NCBI GenBank assembly: GCA_900095095.1
Contig: FMBT01000320.1
Span: 248,001-312,000 of the forward strand
Length of the DNA stretch: 64,000 nucleotides
Direction of reading: 5' to 3'
DNA from: Fragilariopsis cylindrus CCMP1102
Lineage: Eukaryota; Bacillariophyta; Bacillariophyceae; Bacillariales; Bacillariaceae
Shown: in pieces, positions 23,928-55,400 of the stretch
Position numbering within the stretch: the stretch's first letter is position 1
Layout: each line of letters starts with the position of its first letter
The notes under the pieces: generated by a model
The model's input: only the letters and a program-made list of their open reading frames with translations
Database searches by the model: none
Told to the model about the DNA's origin: nothing
Program-made: the position numbers and the translations under genes

Positions 23928-24829
23928 AGTCTATAATATCGCTACAGTGTCTTTATGTCGTCTTTTTGTCATCTCCCCGTAGGTTTAATAAGAGTACCGG
24001 TAGAGAGAGAAATAATAATAATGCGCTGTTTAAATTTTTTGTTCAATTTTTATTTTTTAATGAAAATGTTCACGTCTTAAGTGTGAGTGAACAAGGACTG
24101 ACTCACTCACTCACTTTACTACGTAAGTCGCGTGTACGTCTGCTCGTCGTACTACGCACGCACTTAGAAGTAGATGCACATATTTTATTTTACATTGAAA
24201 AATACTGATTAAGCTTATTAAAATTTGATATTAAAAAGATATTATAATAACAATGCCTTCTCTACTACTTCTTCGCCGATATTATGAACAGCCCTCGCGA
24301 CGCTTTCAAGTCATCGTACGCAACTTGAATTTGTTTCTATTGTAAATGTTTTTTAGTATCGGAGAAAAAAATATTATATTCCATTAAATAAATATATTAT
24401 AGTGATCAAGGTACGAGTACAATAAAATTCAAGTACTTTCAATACTGTACACATCGATAGTAAACATTACACTGAAATGAGAAGTGTAACACTGAAATGA
24501 GAAGTGTGAATACATGTATCACAACATATCGAAAAGACCACAATTGTATTCGTAAAAGAATAATAGTATCGGTGTCTTGAGCCGAAATGTCTTTTATGCA
24601 GTAAGATTACGATTAATTTCCCCCCTTTTTTAGAACCCAATCCGAACTATCGAAGAACGATTTTTTCGTTTTTCCAAAAGACTCTACCGTGCCTTATTGT
24701 GTAGACATTCCATAATACACTTTATCTTACGTTTGTCTCACAATTTCGATCTCCCGGCATCCCGCATTTTGACGACAAACTAACTAACTCGAAAAGATAT
24801 TTACTTTTACGCCAACATTATAAAACAAG
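23928..24829. other. divergent intergenic region upstream of the ice-binding protein
   Basis: It separates the divergent starts of the exonuclease and ice-binding genes and so must hold both promoters. Seen in it: a 20-bp direct duplication around 24470-24510 (acactgaaatgagaagtgt twice), a TACTGTAC motif at 24443-24450, and a TTATAAAA word about 10 bp before the ice-binding ATG, too close to act as a TATA box. Confidence 0.5.
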
Positions 24830-25816
24830 ATGCAGTCATTCAAAGCGATCACACTTACACTCACTTCTCTTCTTTTTGCTGCCATCATTGCTGTTTCAAG
24901 TACACAAGCAACAATCAAAGGTGGAAGTATCAAGAACCACAACATCAAAGAGGATCATCGTCATCTCAGGAAAGAATGTAAAGATAAGAATGGAAAGTTT
25001 AAAGTGAAAGGGAAAAGGAGAAAAATCAGCTGTAAGAAACTTGCTAAGAAGGGATTATGCAATAAGAAGTATAAAAAAGGGAAGAAGACAAAGATATCTG
25101 ACATATGTCGCAAGTCTTGCAATAAACCCAAACAGTTGTTGACTGCAGGCAATTTTGCCATTCTCACGAAGGCAGGCGTAACAACGACGGGATTGACACA
25201 GGTCACTGGGGATATCGGAACAAGTCCTATTGCTGGTACATTCCTCACAGGATTTGATATTGTACTCGATTCAAGTACTCAATTTGCAAGGTCCACGTAT
25301 GTAAATGATGGTGAACTGTATGCAGCCGATTATACACTTCCCACTCCTTCAATGCTTACTGTAGCTGTCCACCATATGGAAACAGCCTATAATAATGCAG
25401 CAGGTCTTTCCAATCCAGACTTCACCGAACTTGGTGCAGGTCTAATAAATGGTCTCACTCTCGAACAAGGCCTGTACAAGTGGGGGACAGATGTCTATTT
25501 TCCTGATAGTCTCACCTTTGATGGTCCTGCAGATGCTGTTTGGATCTTACAGGTGGCAGGAGATGTTATTGTCGGTACTGGTGCAACGATTATATTGTCG
25601 AATGGAGCCAAGGCCGAGAATATTTACTGGCAGGTGGGTGGCAAGACTACGTTTGGTACCGATTCCCATGTCGAGGGTATATTCCTCTGTAAGACAGCAA
25701 TTGTGTTCCAAAATGGAAGCAGCTTGAATGGTGCTGCACTTGCACAAACTGAAGTGACACTTGATGCTGCCACCATCGTGAAGAAGTCTGTACGCGATAA
25801 TAGTTTTGGCTGCTAG
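24830..25816 (+). CDS. secreted type I (DUF3494) ice-binding protein with an N-terminal Cys-rich basic module (328 aa)
   Basis: Residues 1-27 form a signal peptide (hydrophobic core LTSLLFAAIIAV, cleavage near STQA). Residues ~50-97 are very basic with Cys50, 68, 77, 93 and 97, the pattern of the ShK-like Cys-rich modules found in many diatom extracellular proteins. Residues ~103-325 are a complete DUF3494 domain: GNFAILTKAGVT, TQVTGDIGTSPIAG, a capping helix (SMLTVAVHHMETAYNNAAG), LEQGLYKWGTDVYF, AVWILQVAGDV, ENIYWQVGGKTTFGTDSHVEG and SLNGAALAQTEVTLDAATI. The domain folds as a discontinuous beta-solenoid that binds ice planes; diatom copies are known to be cold- and salt-induced and are thought to have arrived by horizontal transfer. 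It is intronless, with A at -3 of the start. The Cys-rich module in front is the unusual part. Confidence 0.93.
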   Translation: MQSFKAITLTLTSLLFAAIIAVSSTQATIKGGSIKNHNIKEDHRHLRKECKDKNGKFKVKGKRRKISCKKLAKKGLCNKKYKKGKKTKISDICRKSCNKPKQLLTAGNFAILTKAGVTTTGLTQVTGDIGTSPIAGTFLTGFDIVLDSSTQFARSTYVNDGELYAADYTLPTPSMLTVAVHHMETAYNNAAGLSNPDFTELGAGLINGLTLEQGLYKWGTDVYFPDSLTFDGPADAVWILQVAGDVIVGTGATIILSNGAKAENIYWQVGGKTTFGTDSHVEGIFLCKTAIVFQNGSSLNGAALAQTEVTLDAATIVKKSVRDNSFGC

Positions 25817-29618: not shown

Positions 29619-31100
29619 CTAACCATTTTCCAAGATATTTACCATCTTTATGTCTATTTGGTACATTGCAGTGCCCTTCTCTATATCCCACTCTATACCT
29701 AGTTCCTCTAACTGCTTTTCTCTTACAGTATCAAGTGTTCCTTTCTTTTTCTCTTTACGCTGTGTACTTACCCACATTCCAAGATTTTTACCATTTTCTT
29801 TGTGTCTACTTGGGATATTGCAGTGCCCTTCTCTACCTTTGAATTTTATGAGAAGTATGATATTTTCATCCCATTCATATTTCAATGCATCCCACTCTAT
29901 ACCTAGCTCCTCTAGTTGCTTTTCCTTTACTTTATCAAGTGTTCCTTTCTTTTTTGTTCTACGCTGTGTACCTAACCATATTCCAAGATTTTTACCACCT
30001 TCTTTGTGATTGTATGGGACATTGCAGTGCCCTTCTCTATCTTTGTATTCTATAAGAAGTATGAGTTTTTCATCCCATTCATATTTCAATAAATTCCACT
30101 CTATACCTAGCTCCTCTAGTTGCTTTTCTTTTATGGCATCAAGTGTTCCTTTCTTTTTGTTTTGACGCTGTCTATTTAACCATTCTCCAAGATTTTTACC
30201 ATCTTCTTTGTGGTCTCTTGGGACATTGCAGTGCCCTTCTTTATCTCTGTATCTTATAAGAAGTATGATATTTTCATCCCATTCATATTTGATTGCATTC
30301 CACACGAAATCATTTGATTCTAATAATTCTATTTGAAGTGGATTGAATCCATCTCTTTTGTAGCGTCGACGCTGTTCGCTGACCCATCGTCCAAGCTGTG
30401 GATCATTTTTGTATTTTCCTGAAACTAAAGGAGAGTTGTATTTTTTTGTGTATGCAGTAAATCGTTCCAACATTTCACTCCATGTTGGATTGCTGATATT
30501 AGTGTATGTATTTTGTTCCGAAATATGCAAATGGGTAAGTTCAACACATGGTGTTTCATCATTGAGTTGAATCGGAAATCTCAAATGATCAACAATTATT
30601 TCACTAGGAACGAAATTGTTTCCATTGTTATTGCATTGGTAGCACATGGGGACAAGATATGCGTACTTCTTTTTGTTTATAAAAATATGCGCTCCTACTG
30701 CTGGTTCGTTACTACATCCTTTAGTGCTACATTTCGATGGCCATGACTGACCGCTTTCTTCTAACCATTGACTTTTGAAATTACGGTATGTTTTTATAGT
30801 AACATGTTTGCCATTTTTTCTTATCGGTCTTTCAATTGAACTACCAACCATGTGTCCCGCGGTATCTCCTTTTTGTGTTGTGTATATAAATTCTTGTTGC
30901 TTTTTATTATACATATTGTTATTACAATTACCTGATGATGCGTATCGTACAGTAGTAGTGCTGGTACGACAGCAGAAGATATTCTTTTTTTTGAATCTTC
31001 GATCGTTGTCGATCGACGTCAGACTAGTACAACAAAAGATGCTGCTGCTCATCAACAACGTCCATATTATTTGTCGTTTAAGGAAGGTTGTCGTCACCAT
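29619..31100 (-). CDS. helicase-associated (HA) domain repeat protein, C-terminally truncated (493 aa)
   Basis: Four HA (PF03457-type) repeats are visible at residues ~208-267, 272-335, 339-403 and 408-471, with a ~67-residue period. The consensus is 'YEWDENIILLIxYKxREGHCNVP...HKExGKNLGxWLxxQR...KGTLxxVKEKQLEELGIEW'. HA domains are short three-helix units, often linked to helicases and thought to bind nucleic acid; free-standing arrays are a hallmark of diatom genomes. Before them, residues ~120-172 hold a Cys/His block (SKCSTKGCSNEP...H138...LVPMCYQCNN) that probably binds zinc. The first ~30 residues are hydrophobic (IIWTLLMSSSIFCC), perhaps a leader. The frame is lost inside the fifth repeat, which gives an aberrant last ~20 residues; repeat remnants continue downstream to 29325. 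Confidence 0.8.
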   Translation of the reverse strand: MVTTTFLKRQIIWTLLMSSSIFCCTSLTSIDNDRRFKKKNIFCCRTSTTTVRYASSGNCNNNMYNKKQQEFIYTTQKGDTAGHMVGSSIERPIRKNGKHVTIKTYRNFKSQWLEESGQSWPSKCSTKGCSNEPAVGAHIFINKKKYAYLVPMCYQCNNNGNNFVPSEIIVDHLRFPIQLNDETPCVELTHLHISEQNTYTNISNPTWSEMLERFTAYTKKYNSPLVSGKYKNDPQLGRWVSEQRRRYKRDGFNPLQIELLESNDFVWNAIKYEWDENIILLIRYRDKEGHCNVPRDHKEDGKNLGEWLNRQRQNKKKGTLDAIKEKQLEELGIEWNLLKYEWDEKLILLIEYKDREGHCNVPYNHKEGGKNLGIWLGTQRRTKKKGTLDKVKEKQLEELGIEWDALKYEWDENIILLIKFKGREGHCNIPSRHKENGKNLGMWVSTQRKEKKKGTLDTVREKQLEELGIEWDIEKGTAMYQIDIKMVNILENG

Positions 31101-31604
31101 TATAAATAATTTCTTTCCGTCTTAAATCCTATTATAAGGACTAGATACTGTAGTGTATATCGTTAAAAGAGAGGACGAAGCAATGGAATGGAATAACAAT
31201 TTGTTCCGTTTAAGCAAGATAATACATCAACTGTAACACTGTATCAGTTCGCATTTTTTGGCGGAGTTAAGTAACATTTACTCAACTACGGTATTGTTCT
31301 TTCTCTGTCAAGATGCGCGCGCTAAAATGATACTGTAATGCGCTCGTACTGACGCCTATTTTTTTTTTAGAAAGTGAAAATTGTACGTACGTTATTAGGA
31401 ATACAATTTTGTTTTAAATGAAAATAAATTATAATACAAACCTGCGATTCATTCGATTGACGAATATTCGTAAAATTTTATAGGACTAATCATTAGATGT
31501 CGTGACGTGAGCTACAGTATCACGATGTACAGTAGGAGGTCTTTAAGGTGGTCAAATTTTCTAGTAGTATTGGAAATTCGTTCGTCATACTGAGAGTACT
31601 GTAT
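31101..31604. other. intergenic; nothing recognised
   Basis: Between the start of the HA-repeat gene and the 3' end of the C2 gene. AT-rich, with one TACTGTA motif near 31596 and no plausible frame. Confidence 0.45.
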
Positions 31605-50109: not shown

Positions 50110-50625
50110 TCGTTTTGAATCCGTATCCAAGGCCAAGAAGTAATGTGGTATTACATCACGGAAAAGAAGATGGTGGTACAACTGACGATGAAACGGATGC
50201 AGTCAATTGTCATCTAGTTGGCATATCAATATTGAAGATGGCATGTCAAAACAATGTAACTATAATGTGTTATGTTGAAGAAAGCAAAGATGATGCAAAC
50301 TGGCCTAACGGGTAAATGCATCTCATTGTTACTGATATCAATGTAAGATACAACGATTCAGGTATATCGGACTCACATGCGAGGCTCAATCAGAAGAAAC
50401 AAGTAAGATCCCTTTCAATGGAAAGGAATGAAGATCCGAATGATCTATTCGACTCATTAGCAGCAATCAAGTTGCTATACTCTGGTACGAAAATACCACT
50501 GTAAGATAGTGAAATGAAAGACACCATCTTTGAGAAGCTACCAGCTATGTGTTCAAATACATTGATTACGACAGAAGATATATGGACTCTGAAGAACCCC
50601 AACAAGGTATAGAATAAAGGATCGA
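50110..50625 (+). mobile_element. possible fossil fragment of a Ty1/copia-type retroelement (gag-like part), broken
   Basis: Short open segments on the + strand resemble the gag region of diatom copia-type elements, notably a DPNDLFDSLAAIKLLY-like patch and a following segment with a (E)KLPAM word. No LTR, protease, integrase or reverse transcriptase part was recognised nearby. It is clearly broken and incomplete. It lies immediately behind the 2H-like gene and before the duplicated plastid gene. The family call rests on pattern memory only. Confidence 0.35.
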
Positions 50626-50719: not shown

Positions 50720-51601
50720 TTATAATTTCGTCCACTCGTCCCAGTTCGTCCACGTGTTTCCAGATGCATTCGACTGAACCGGAAATGGAAATCTGATCAC
50801 ATTATTTGTGTATGTGGCGTCCACAACCTTCTTGTTCGGAAAGACAAATTGAATCCCCACGGAACCGTCATTCGTTTTCTTGCCGCCATCTTTTTCGACG
50901 ATCGTTGCCGTGATCGCTTGGTTTTTGTTGAGCTGCACGGCTAACAAATTACTCGTAGTGGGGTCTTTGCGGATAATCACGACGCGGTATCCTTGACCAG
51001 CAACTCTCGGATCGGTAGCGTACACACCCTCGACGGCGGTTGCAACATTCTTGGTCCATACATTGCCATCCGGAAACACAATTTTGTTCCCGTGGTCGGC
51101 TACCGTTCCGACGATTTTCTTCGGTCCGCCTTTGGCACTCAAATCAAACGTCAAATACGTCTCTCCTTTTTTGGGGTCGTCTTTAACCTTCACGCCGATG
51201 TTGTTGTACGTTTTTGGAGTAGCATTGGTAGCAACAGTAGTACTATCCTTGTTGTTCTTGTTGGTGTCCGTAGGAGTACCTTCAACAACAACAACACCGT
51301 CGCTCAAAAACATGTTGGCGACGGTGTAACTTTTCCGAATCAGCACACGATACCCCTTGGGGTGTTTGGGATCCGTCCACACGCCCGTGAAACAAGGATC
51401 CTGGCAGGTCGTTTTTGGTTTGGTGGTGGCAGCAACAACAGTATTGGCAGCATTGGCAGCATTGGCAATCGTAGGAACAGATGCGGAAAGAAACGCAACA
51501 CCGGCACCGAAGGCATTTGTCAGAGTATCACGACGGGAAGCCGACAGCTGCGTGCAGCTGCTTCGAAAGCTGTCGTTGTCGTTGTTGATGTTGTTGTTGA
51601 C
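50720..51601 (-). pseudogene. 3' copy of the thylakoid-lumen protein gene, separated from its start by a tandem duplication
   Basis: The frame is open from the duplication junction (~51601) to a stop at 50720. It carries the plastid signal remnant, the first GVWTDPKHPKGYRVLIRK unit, the second GVYATDPRVAGQGYRVVIIRK unit and the only copy of the real C-terminus (IRFPFPVQSNASGN...WDEWTKL). It lacks the initiating secretory signal, which is present only in the 5' copy (51528-52424). Without the 682-bp duplication, start and end would form a single 340-aa protein. This host gene is therefore either disrupted by a very recent duplication or intact in reality and misassembled here. Confidence 0.7.
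50920..51601. repeat. 682-bp tandem duplication, copy 1
   Basis: Base-for-base identical by eye to 51602-52283, with an offset of 682 (e.g. 50921 matches 51603 and 51601 matches 52283). 682 is not a multiple of three, so the duplication shifts the frame of the gene it lies in. Confidence 0.9.
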
Positions 51602-52424
51602 GGTTTTTGTTGAGCTGCACGGCTAACAAATTACTCGTAGTGGGGTCTTTGCGGATAATCACGACGCGGTATCCTTGACCAGCAACTCTCGGATCGGTAG
51701 CGTACACACCCTCGACGGCGGTTGCAACATTCTTGGTCCATACATTGCCATCCGGAAACACAATTTTGTTCCCGTGGTCGGCTACCGTTCCGACGATTTT
51801 CTTCGGTCCGCCTTTGGCACTCAAATCAAACGTCAAATACGTCTCTCCTTTTTTGGGGTCGTCTTTAACCTTCACGCCGATGTTGTTGTACGTTTTTGGA
51901 GTAGCATTGGTAGCAACAGTAGTACTATCCTTGTTGTTCTTGTTGGTGTCCGTAGGAGTACCTTCAACAACAACAACACCGTCGCTCAAAAACATGTTGG
52001 CGACGGTGTAACTTTTCCGAATCAGCACACGATACCCCTTGGGGTGTTTGGGATCCGTCCACACGCCCGTGAAACAAGGATCCTGGCAGGTCGTTTTTGG
52101 TTTGGTGGTGGCAGCAACAACAGTATTGGCAGCATTGGCAGCATTGGCAATCGTAGGAACAGATGCGGAAAGAAACGCAACACCGGCACCGAAGGCATTT
52201 GTCAGAGTATCACGACGGGAAGCCGACAGCTGCGTGCAGCTGCTTCGAAAGCTGTCGTTGTCGTTGTTGATGTTGTTGTTGACAGTCGTTTCGATGGAAC
52301 GTCTCTCGGCAATGGAACATCTTTTCGCTGGCACTGTTGCTGCTGGCGTGAACGCACTACCGCTACAGAAGCAGGCGGCGAACACTGTCAACGCCGCGAG
52401 AAAGAAGATGTTCATCAACATCAT
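51528..52424 (-). CDS. thylakoid-lumen protein of unknown function, frame cut by duplication (298 aa as it stands)
   Basis: The bipartite, then tripartite, leader is textbook heterokont. A secretory signal (residues 1-24) ends ...CSGSAF, with Phe at +1 of the cleavage site (the ASAFAP-type plastid motif). A Ser/basic transit stretch follows. Then comes a Tat signal SRRDTLTNAFGAGVAFLSAS with an ANA cleavage site (~70-96). The mature part has two related beta-rich units, FTGVWTDPKHPKGYRVLIRK and EGVYATDPRVAGQGYRVVIIRK. The lumenal role is unknown. After LLAVQLNKN the frame runs into the second copy's leader in the wrong frame and ends 20-odd residues later (...LSKQLHAAVGFPS). The native C-terminus is found only downstream at 50720. 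Confidence 0.75.
   Translation of the reverse strand: MMLMNIFFLAALTVFAACFCSGSAFTPAATVPAKRCSIAERRSIETTVNNNINNDNDSFRSSCTQLSASRRDTLTNAFGAGVAFLSASVPTIANAANAANTVVAATTKPKTTCQDPCFTGVWTDPKHPKGYRVLIRKSYTVANMFLSDGVVVVEGTPTDTNKNNKDSTTVATNATPKTYNNIGVKVKDDPKKGETYLTFDLSAKGGPKKIVGTVADHGNKIVFPDGNVWTKNVATAVEGVYATDPRVAGQGYRVVIIRKDPTTSNLLAVQLNKNRQQQHQQRQRQLSKQLHAAVGFPS
51602..52283. repeat. 682-bp tandem duplication, copy 2
   Basis: Partner of 50920-51601. The left junction falls between 'gttgttgac' and 'ggtttttgttgagc', with only 1-2 bases of shared sequence at the breakpoint visible. Confidence 0.9.
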
Positions 52425-55400
52425 ATATTAATATTACTATTAGTATGGAGTGCTGTACTGTACTGTATTGCGTTTTCATGTGCCTTCTTCCAACTCATTC
52501 CAATTTCTAGAAAATGCTTGTATTGTGTAATAAAAAAGAGGGGTGCGACACGACGTCTGTCCGTCAACCGCACGCGTGTAAAAATAAGCGTCAACATTGA
52601 TTTTTTTTTTTCAAATCCTTGTTTTTGTCAATAAGATAAAAATTGTCCTCAGCTGATTTTTTTTCAATCACAATTCACTAGACATTACTAGTAAAACTAT
52701 AGAACTTTCAACAGCATGCAACTTACAAACTGTTCATTTTAAATTAAAATTTAAATATATTTCCTAGACCCATTTTAACCACAAGTAGGAATATACTAAC
52801 TGTTTCTGTATAATACAAGCGTAATACATAATCATTTTTGATTGAAAATTGCTTGAATTATGCAGTTGTTTTTTACAGTGAATTTAGTTTTTGAGTCCCA
52901 TAAAATTCTAGCAGCACAAGGAGACAGAGGAAACACCTGACAAGAATACGACTGAGGAGAACTGTAAATCAGAGAAGAACAGAAAGGATGAGGAAGAAAA
53001 AGAGGATGAGTACAAAGGAGGAAGACCACCACTCTTCACACATACAAAATGGAGACACAAGGAGGAGGAACAGAACAGAATAGAACAAGAAGAACGAGCA
53101 CAGGTACCTGAAATGGGTACAGCAAATTCTTGCATATTGATTGATGAAATACTAATACTTATCTGATGATTCTTACCAAGGTATTCACAGAATTAATTCT
53201 TCTCTAGATAAAAATAGACTTACATTGGGGGGGGGGGGGGGGACCACCCATTGAAAAGGAAAATATATTGATAATAGTTTGGTTTGTCTTCTTGTTAAGA
53301 ATACAGCAGCTGACACATACATGTTCTAATTCAGCATATGACTAAGTAAGAGGGGCAGTCTTCTTCTCACGATGTAATATCATTTTAATTTGTCATACAG
53401 TAGTAGACATCGCTACAGTATATCAGCAGTACTGCATACCTTTTGTGTAAGTGTGCGTTTGCGCGCTCCTATTCAAGGATAAAAAACGTTGCGTTGTCCG
53501 GCGGCATCAGAAGAATCAATCACGAATACGGTATTCGTGAAAGCAAATTTGATAGAAGAACTTCTCATTTACAGCAATTTACCGGTAGAGAGCACCATAA
53601 ATCATATTTCAGCTGTATTTATTATTGTACGACTACACTAGCGAATGATCAAGTCGAGGTGTAATAATTGGAATATTATTTAAGTTTCGTACAAATCGTA
53701 CACTACCGTACGGACAAAAAGAGATCTTGTTGTAAGTTTGTACTACTGTCCGTATTGTTCTATTCAATCTATTACTGTACACCATGCAAAAAGAACAATA
53801 TCCGAAAATTGCATACAAATTCAAGTTGCATTTATTTTATTAATGTATTTATTACAATTGCTCTTACGATTGAAGAAAAAATGGGATTAGAAGCGATGCG
53901 ATGTTTCATAATTTTTTCTTCTTTTTTGAATAGACGATTGTACGACGCGCAATGAGAATGATATTAATATTATTCCGTATTTATATTCCTTTCATTTTTC
54001 TTATTCCTTCTTGGGCGTGAATGAATCGATTCGAAATCGAATCGAATTAACATCCTTCAATACAGGTAGGTACTTAGTTAGTACAACACAGACCTTAATT
54101 AATAAAAATTGATTTGTTGAAAGTGTCACTCACGTACAGAGCAAGCAGTGTGGAACAAAGCGCGATTAAATAAAATGCCTCACGAACTTTTATTTAATGA
54201 CAAATAATAAATCTTCATACCGGTACTTCTTTATGATTGAGGAACTAAATACCCTACTTCCCGTAGACGGAGACTTACTGATTCATCGGCGAAAAGAACG
54301 GTATGTAGTCCTAGTCGTAATCTAAACAATTTGTTTTACTAGCGCGTTTACTGTACAGAGAGAGAGAGAGAGGTAATGCATGCCTAACAGTACAATAATT
54401 AATTATTTTAATTAAGTGACTATTAAGCGAATCTCAACACAATACAGAACTCAACACATACCTCATCACTGTAACAGCGCAAGATAACTTAGGTGTAGAC
54501 TGTTGTTCTATCGGCGAAATAACATTCCTACTTGATTTCTTCACACTGTTCAGTCCAACAAGAGCACAACATACAACATGATGTATAAACGAGGTCATAA
54601 CACGTTGAACTTAGTCCGCGAACAACTAACGATCGACAACTTATATATAAGGTTCAAAAAAAAAAACTATCACACAGTAAATCTTGTTAATTAATTTAAT
54701 TGTAATATCAATACACAAAAGACCCATTCACACGCGTACAAGTAAACTCCTCAATGTTCTTCTTTGTCTTCAATATTTCTCCTTCGTTTTTGCAAACGCC
54801 ATCATTAATTAGTATGCTCTGGTGATACGGCAAGTCTCGCATTCATCGCTCAACGACTAAATAATAAATAAATATCTCTCATGCGATGCAAAAGTGCTAC
54901 GTAGGCAGCGGTAAAACTATTCGGTTCGGCAGTTGTTCTCTTCTCTTCGAAAAACAACGTCATACAGTAACCCAAATAACCCAAAGCACAGCAGCGCTTT
55001 CTACAGCAACACAACAAACGCACGTATTACTGTTACGGTGTGGACATTAAAAATAAAACAAAAACTCCCATTCAGCCAGATTGATTCGATTCATTCTGTT
55101 CGTATTCTTGTATTTGCCGCCCATAATATATAGTTTATAGCCACACAACACACCCCAAAGAAGATAAGAGAGAAAAGAATAATAATAAGAAGAAGAAGAG
55201 GTACGTTCGAAACAACAATTCAATTTGACTTTAAAGTACAGTACAGTGCAGTACCCGAACAAACGAAGAAGAAAAAAGAAAACGGACCCCCCTGCCTGTG
55301 GATTCAATCAGTCTTCGCGCCTGTCTTATTTCGTCTTGTCTCACATCTCTCTCTCTCTCTCTCTCTCTTCCCCACTCAATCACTCTCACCTACAGACCTG

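Follow-up and report, generated by a model that had tools for sequence, protein, structure and literature searches.

Among the systems to which the present locus can be compared are the recent, often heterozygous tandem duplications of diploid genomes, with which it shares a short direct repeat, identical abutting copies and a broken reading frame. A second comparison is with the "homotype" false duplications of PMC9516828, for which copies free of allelic differences and a read depth below the haploid level would be expected; the locus resembles them in its identical copies and in belonging to a long-read assembly with redundant contigs. A gap between the members of a pair on a scaffold is listed in that paper as a usual sign, whereas here no gap separates the copies. 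A third is the gain of introns by tandem duplication of exonic sequence, an established model (PMC3443670, PMC4974935); the present duplication is likewise exonic, contains AGGT inside the unit, and would restore the frame upon exact excision, but its candidate donors lack the donor pattern of this genome.

The window, a stretch of 64,000 nucleotides from the polar diatom Fragilariopsis cylindrus CCMP1102 (contig FMBT01000320.1), contains a gene on the minus strand which runs from an ATG at 52424 to a stop codon ending at 50720, and within it an exact tandem duplication of 682 bp (Table 1). The sequence-only reading had noted that the two copies look identical, and had regarded many differences between them as evidence against its account; a direct comparison revealed 0 differences in 682 bases. 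The copies abut directly, and the match extends 0 bases to either side of the unit. Ns were sought across the whole window and none were found, so that there are none at the junction. A genome search with the 682-bp unit, carried out on a copy of the assembly comprising 818 contigs, found it at these two positions only. A repeat of such length and exactness cannot have arisen by chance. Zero observed differences are still compatible with a true expectation of up to approximately 3 (an estimated 95% bound) which, at the mutation rates of diatoms, could correspond to millions of generations; identity therefore does not prove great youth.

Table 1. Features of the duplicated gene (coordinates are those of the window).
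Feature	Position	Strand	Remarks
Copy A (3' in the gene sense)	50920..51601	-	682 bp; identical to copy B, 682/682
Copy B (5' in the gene sense)	51602..52283	-	682 bp; identical to copy A; found by unit search
Junction of the copies	51601..51602	.	Blunt; no homology past the ends of the unit (0 bp); without Ns
ORF from the leader-bearing ATG	51528..52424	-	298 aa; 274 single-copy residues, then 24 foreign residues and a stop
Frame with the true C-terminus (...WTKL)	50720..51601	-	No ATG with leader
Unique 5' end of the gene	52284..52424	-	Signal-peptide-like start and presumed SAF-type site (translation)
Unduplicated 3' coding end	50720..50919	-	Sequence comparison

Duplications of this type are rare in the vicinity. 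A scan of one continuous 164,000-base section of the contig (C674:218001-382000) gave eight rows of exact repeats of at least 60 bases, among which only the 682-bp case is the duplication of a whole unit; the next longest exact repeat measures 85 bases. The 35 loci inspected outside the 682-bp locus yielded no additional near-whole, exact tandem duplication of period 60 bases or more; this sample comprises 167,257 bases, some of its loci overlap one another and five also fall within the 164-kb scan. That the 164-kb scan contains no second duplication of a whole unit may be held against an error of assembly, and we regard the rarity as a whole (one such case per 164 kb, none at the 35 other loci) as neutral between mutation and artefact. 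Older, imperfect tandem arrays are also present in the window, for example with periods of 190 and 204 bases and 85-86% identity.

As the sequence-only reading had proposed, the reading frame breaks at the junction, 682 not being divisible by three. As assembled, with two copies, the frame that opens at the leader-bearing ATG, the only one in the gene, stops after 298 codons, the last 24 of which are out of frame with respect to the single-copy protein. The true C-terminus indeed lies apart from this start, in a different frame whose stop-to-stop stretch (50723-51622) includes no leader-bearing start; the first ATG of this frame sits, by translation, within repeat 1 of the mature protein. When one copy is left out a 1023-base open frame of 340 codons with a single terminal stop is obtained. 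By eye the leader resembles what we take to be a diatom plastid leader (a hydrophobic start, ...GSAF, then the motif SRRD and an alanine-rich end), and the thylakoid lumen is the probable destination of a protein with such a bipartite leader.

Paralogous open frames occur in the same genome on contigs C303 (304 codons stop to stop), C788 and C284 (271 codons each), and C68 has a weaker match to one repeat. In the alignment they show 39, 29, 29 and 27% identity, respectively, to the single-copy protein. There are 15 invariant columns over the five sequences, the C68 row spanning one repeat only, and the shared motifs cover both repeats of the two-repeat family. The paralogues on C303 and C788/C284 likewise possess a leader, an SRRE or SSRD motif and variants of DPKHPxGYR and FPDGNxW, but are unbroken. 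Since the frames of all three two-repeat paralogues are uninterrupted, the single-copy form was taken to be ancestral. The alignment runs through the 3' breakpoint in all three of them; the 5' breakpoint lies in the leader, which is variable, and the rows of C303 and C788/C284 have a gap directly beside it, so that conservation says little at this position. C284 and C788 are an allele-like pair, with 13 differences in 900 bases (98.6% identity) over the stretch which holds the coding region and more diverged flanks.

Searches for a known family were negative. Pfam gave no family for the 298-aa ORF and, below the threshold, a single hit for the 220-aa C-terminal frame (PF24612, E 0.96); for C303 and C788 the matches were sub-threshold only, and for C68 there were none. 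NCBIfam gave none for the window ORF and three sub-threshold matches for C788. Among solved structures there was no match to the 220-aa frame and one chance-level match (E 0.49) to the family profile, while in viral contigs five stretches fit a pattern but none was confirmed as a relative.

We give about an even chance to a real and recent loss-of-function tandem duplication, probably carried on one haplotype. A real duplication is in our opinion slightly likelier than an assembly error; the sequence-only reading was right to list a recent mutation, one allele of a heterozygous locus and an artefact, but sequence by itself does not decide among them. A nuclear F. cylindrus gene for a protein of two repeats headed by a bipartite leader would recently have gained the 682-bp duplication, two broken ends presumably being joined without shared bases. 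Because the unit is not a multiple of three, unspliced mRNA would yield only the 298-residue protein, without the last 66 of the 340 residues, and the truncation would make this a loss-of-function allele. The duplication would most likely be found on one of the two haplotypes, the other possessing an intact single-copy allele. The identical copies, the blunt junction without an N gap, and the intact 340-codon single-copy frame which aligns with C303 and C788/C284 are all consistent with a real event. In addition, the array measures 1.36 kb, and could be spanned by reads from the 20-kb library (read N50 8.2-8.9 kb, PMC5634323), and a figure legend of the same paper refers to natural tandem duplications elsewhere in the assembly as haplotype variation. 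The public PacBio data (PRJEB15040) also include circular-consensus reads with a mean of 2.4 kb, long enough to cross the array, although at 4.8x coverage few would do so; RNA-seq data exist as E-MTAB-5024. On the other hand, an unmerged overlap would also leave a blunt junction without shared bases, and an otherwise undamaged frame is natural if the cell contains no duplication. If real, this would be a fresh loss-of-function allele, with which the strain lives, in a gene family to which no function is assigned.

The principal competitor is an artefact in which two assembled pieces of one sequence overlapped by 682 bp and were not collapsed, the gene being intact and single-copy in the cell. 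We consider this a serious contender, its probability lying somewhat short of one half. According to the assembly description in PMC5634323 the genome of this diploid was assembled from PacBio reads with FALCON/Quiver, and approximately 25% of it consists of highly diverged haplotypes, the rest being homozygous. About three-quarters of the sequence data (3.85 versus 1.37 Gb) came from a 4-kb library with a read N50 of only 2.6-2.7 kb, and the fosmid checks were uneven, ranging from 98.8 to 100% among the rows considered here, with the worst aligned over 14 kb (PMC5634323). Exact identity and a junction without homology would be expected of such an overlap, and an intact frame does remain once a copy is left out. 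In other genomes read errors have given rise to false duplications (PMC9516828), and redundant contigs exist in this assembly too: the alignment of C759:11449-14658 and C307:512761-515970, 3215 columns long, contains 0 substitutions and 11 gaps of one base each. The first ca. 2.6 kb of this pair is identical and the gaps, again without substitutions, are confined to the final 0.6 kb, as though polishing had missed one stretch. Against the artefact, 51601/51602 shows neither a gap nor an N, gaps being a usual sign in the account of PMC9516828; some reads of the 20-kb library were long enough to cross the array; and one fosmid showed a perfect alignment of 43,010 bp (PMC5634323). Were the artefact the correct explanation, the locus would serve as a warning that the FALCON assembly has the gene wrong.

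The artefact which the sequence-only reading had in mind, a merger of two haplotypes, survives in part. A "heterotype" false duplication, that is, the merger of two diverged haplotypes, is unlikely: at the divergence of C284 and C788 a 682-base stretch should contain some 10 differences, and the copies show none. This argument bears on the locus only if it lies in a diverged region; it has no force in a homozygous one, and most of the genome is homozygous by the description in PMC5634323. The fusion of two identical haplotypes may have taken place, being compatible with 0 differences. A second haplotype of the locus was not found in the 818-contig copy using either the unit or both flanks (4.4 and 4.7 kb), which matched only the locus itself and short dispersed repeats; for the upstream flank 40 of 338 candidates were scored. 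This copy totals 67.9 Mb, in comparison with the 1,028 contigs and 69 Mb of a table in PMC12159174, and a short haplotype contig may therefore be missing from it.

The dispersed repeats adjoin the gene on both sides. The first (52527-52907) sits just upstream of the gene start; the flank search gave 42 rows, of which at least 37 belong to this repeat, at 72-94% identity, and seven loci were re-aligned. The second (50160-50610), just downstream, is present at nine further places on eight other contigs with 71-88% identity (partly re-aligned), and its translation gives the impression of a retrotransposon remnant.

The readings in which a real duplication is spliced out of the transcript, precisely or nearly so, take most of the probability left by the real duplication and the artefact. 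Taken together they are highly improbable, and call for a newborn intron of 0.4-0.8 kb, with identical copies still present, as an instance of intron birth in a diatom. In the exact version, to which we assign a slimmer chance still, an AG/GT in copy B would be joined to the same AG in copy A, removing exactly 682 nt and restoring the protein. The coding strand of the unit contains two AGGT sites, either of which would do so, and the mechanism is that of the model in PMC3443670 and PMC4974935 cited above. The yardstick was a set of 11 gaps separating exon matches in chaperonin and HSP70 genes, and in nine of these the top-scoring donor conforms to GT[AG]NGT, a rough guide since the scoring favoured that consensus; the nine donors were positioned exactly on the profile or within 12 nt, while one gap (L051) was ambiguous and another (L060) held no convincing intron. 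The nine introns have inferred lengths of 103-514 nt, the longest of which makes the length of the proposed intron not absurd. However, the candidate donors (GTACTC and GTTAAA) have neither G at +5 nor T at +6, and exact splicing is unlikely because both sites lack the pattern seen in nine of the 11 gaps. Both candidate acceptors are AAG, as against eight YAG and one AAG in the nine fitting gaps, and the frames of C303, C788 and C284 run on without interruption.

Least probable of all is imprecise splicing, in which the donor AGG/GTGTGT in copy B, which does fit the donor pattern, would be used with a downstream acceptor to give an altered in-frame protein: paired with an AG acceptor this donor preserves the frame in 12 ways, two of which use YAG (products of 364 and 311 aa), and a laxer scan (GTNNG donors, YAG acceptors) gave 48 in-frame combinations over all donors, some of them near the single-copy length (344 and 346 aa, for example), but GTRNGT sites occur in the single-copy gene at the rate of shuffled sequence (two observed versus 1.7 expected in 500 mononucleotide shuffles), the site would be usable in that gene too, and many lax combinations are expected without meaning and carry little weight. 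For the same reason the GTGTGT donor was not counted as evidence for splicing. All of the readings are ordinary with the exception of splicing, the only one which would touch upon an open question, the origin of introns.

Two other coding regions of the window may be mentioned. A gene for an ice-binding-like protein (PF11999, E 1.8e-64), in keeping with a polar diatom, is located at 24824-25813, and an ORF at 29622-31121 contains repeated helicase-associated (HA, PF03457) domains in four stretches.
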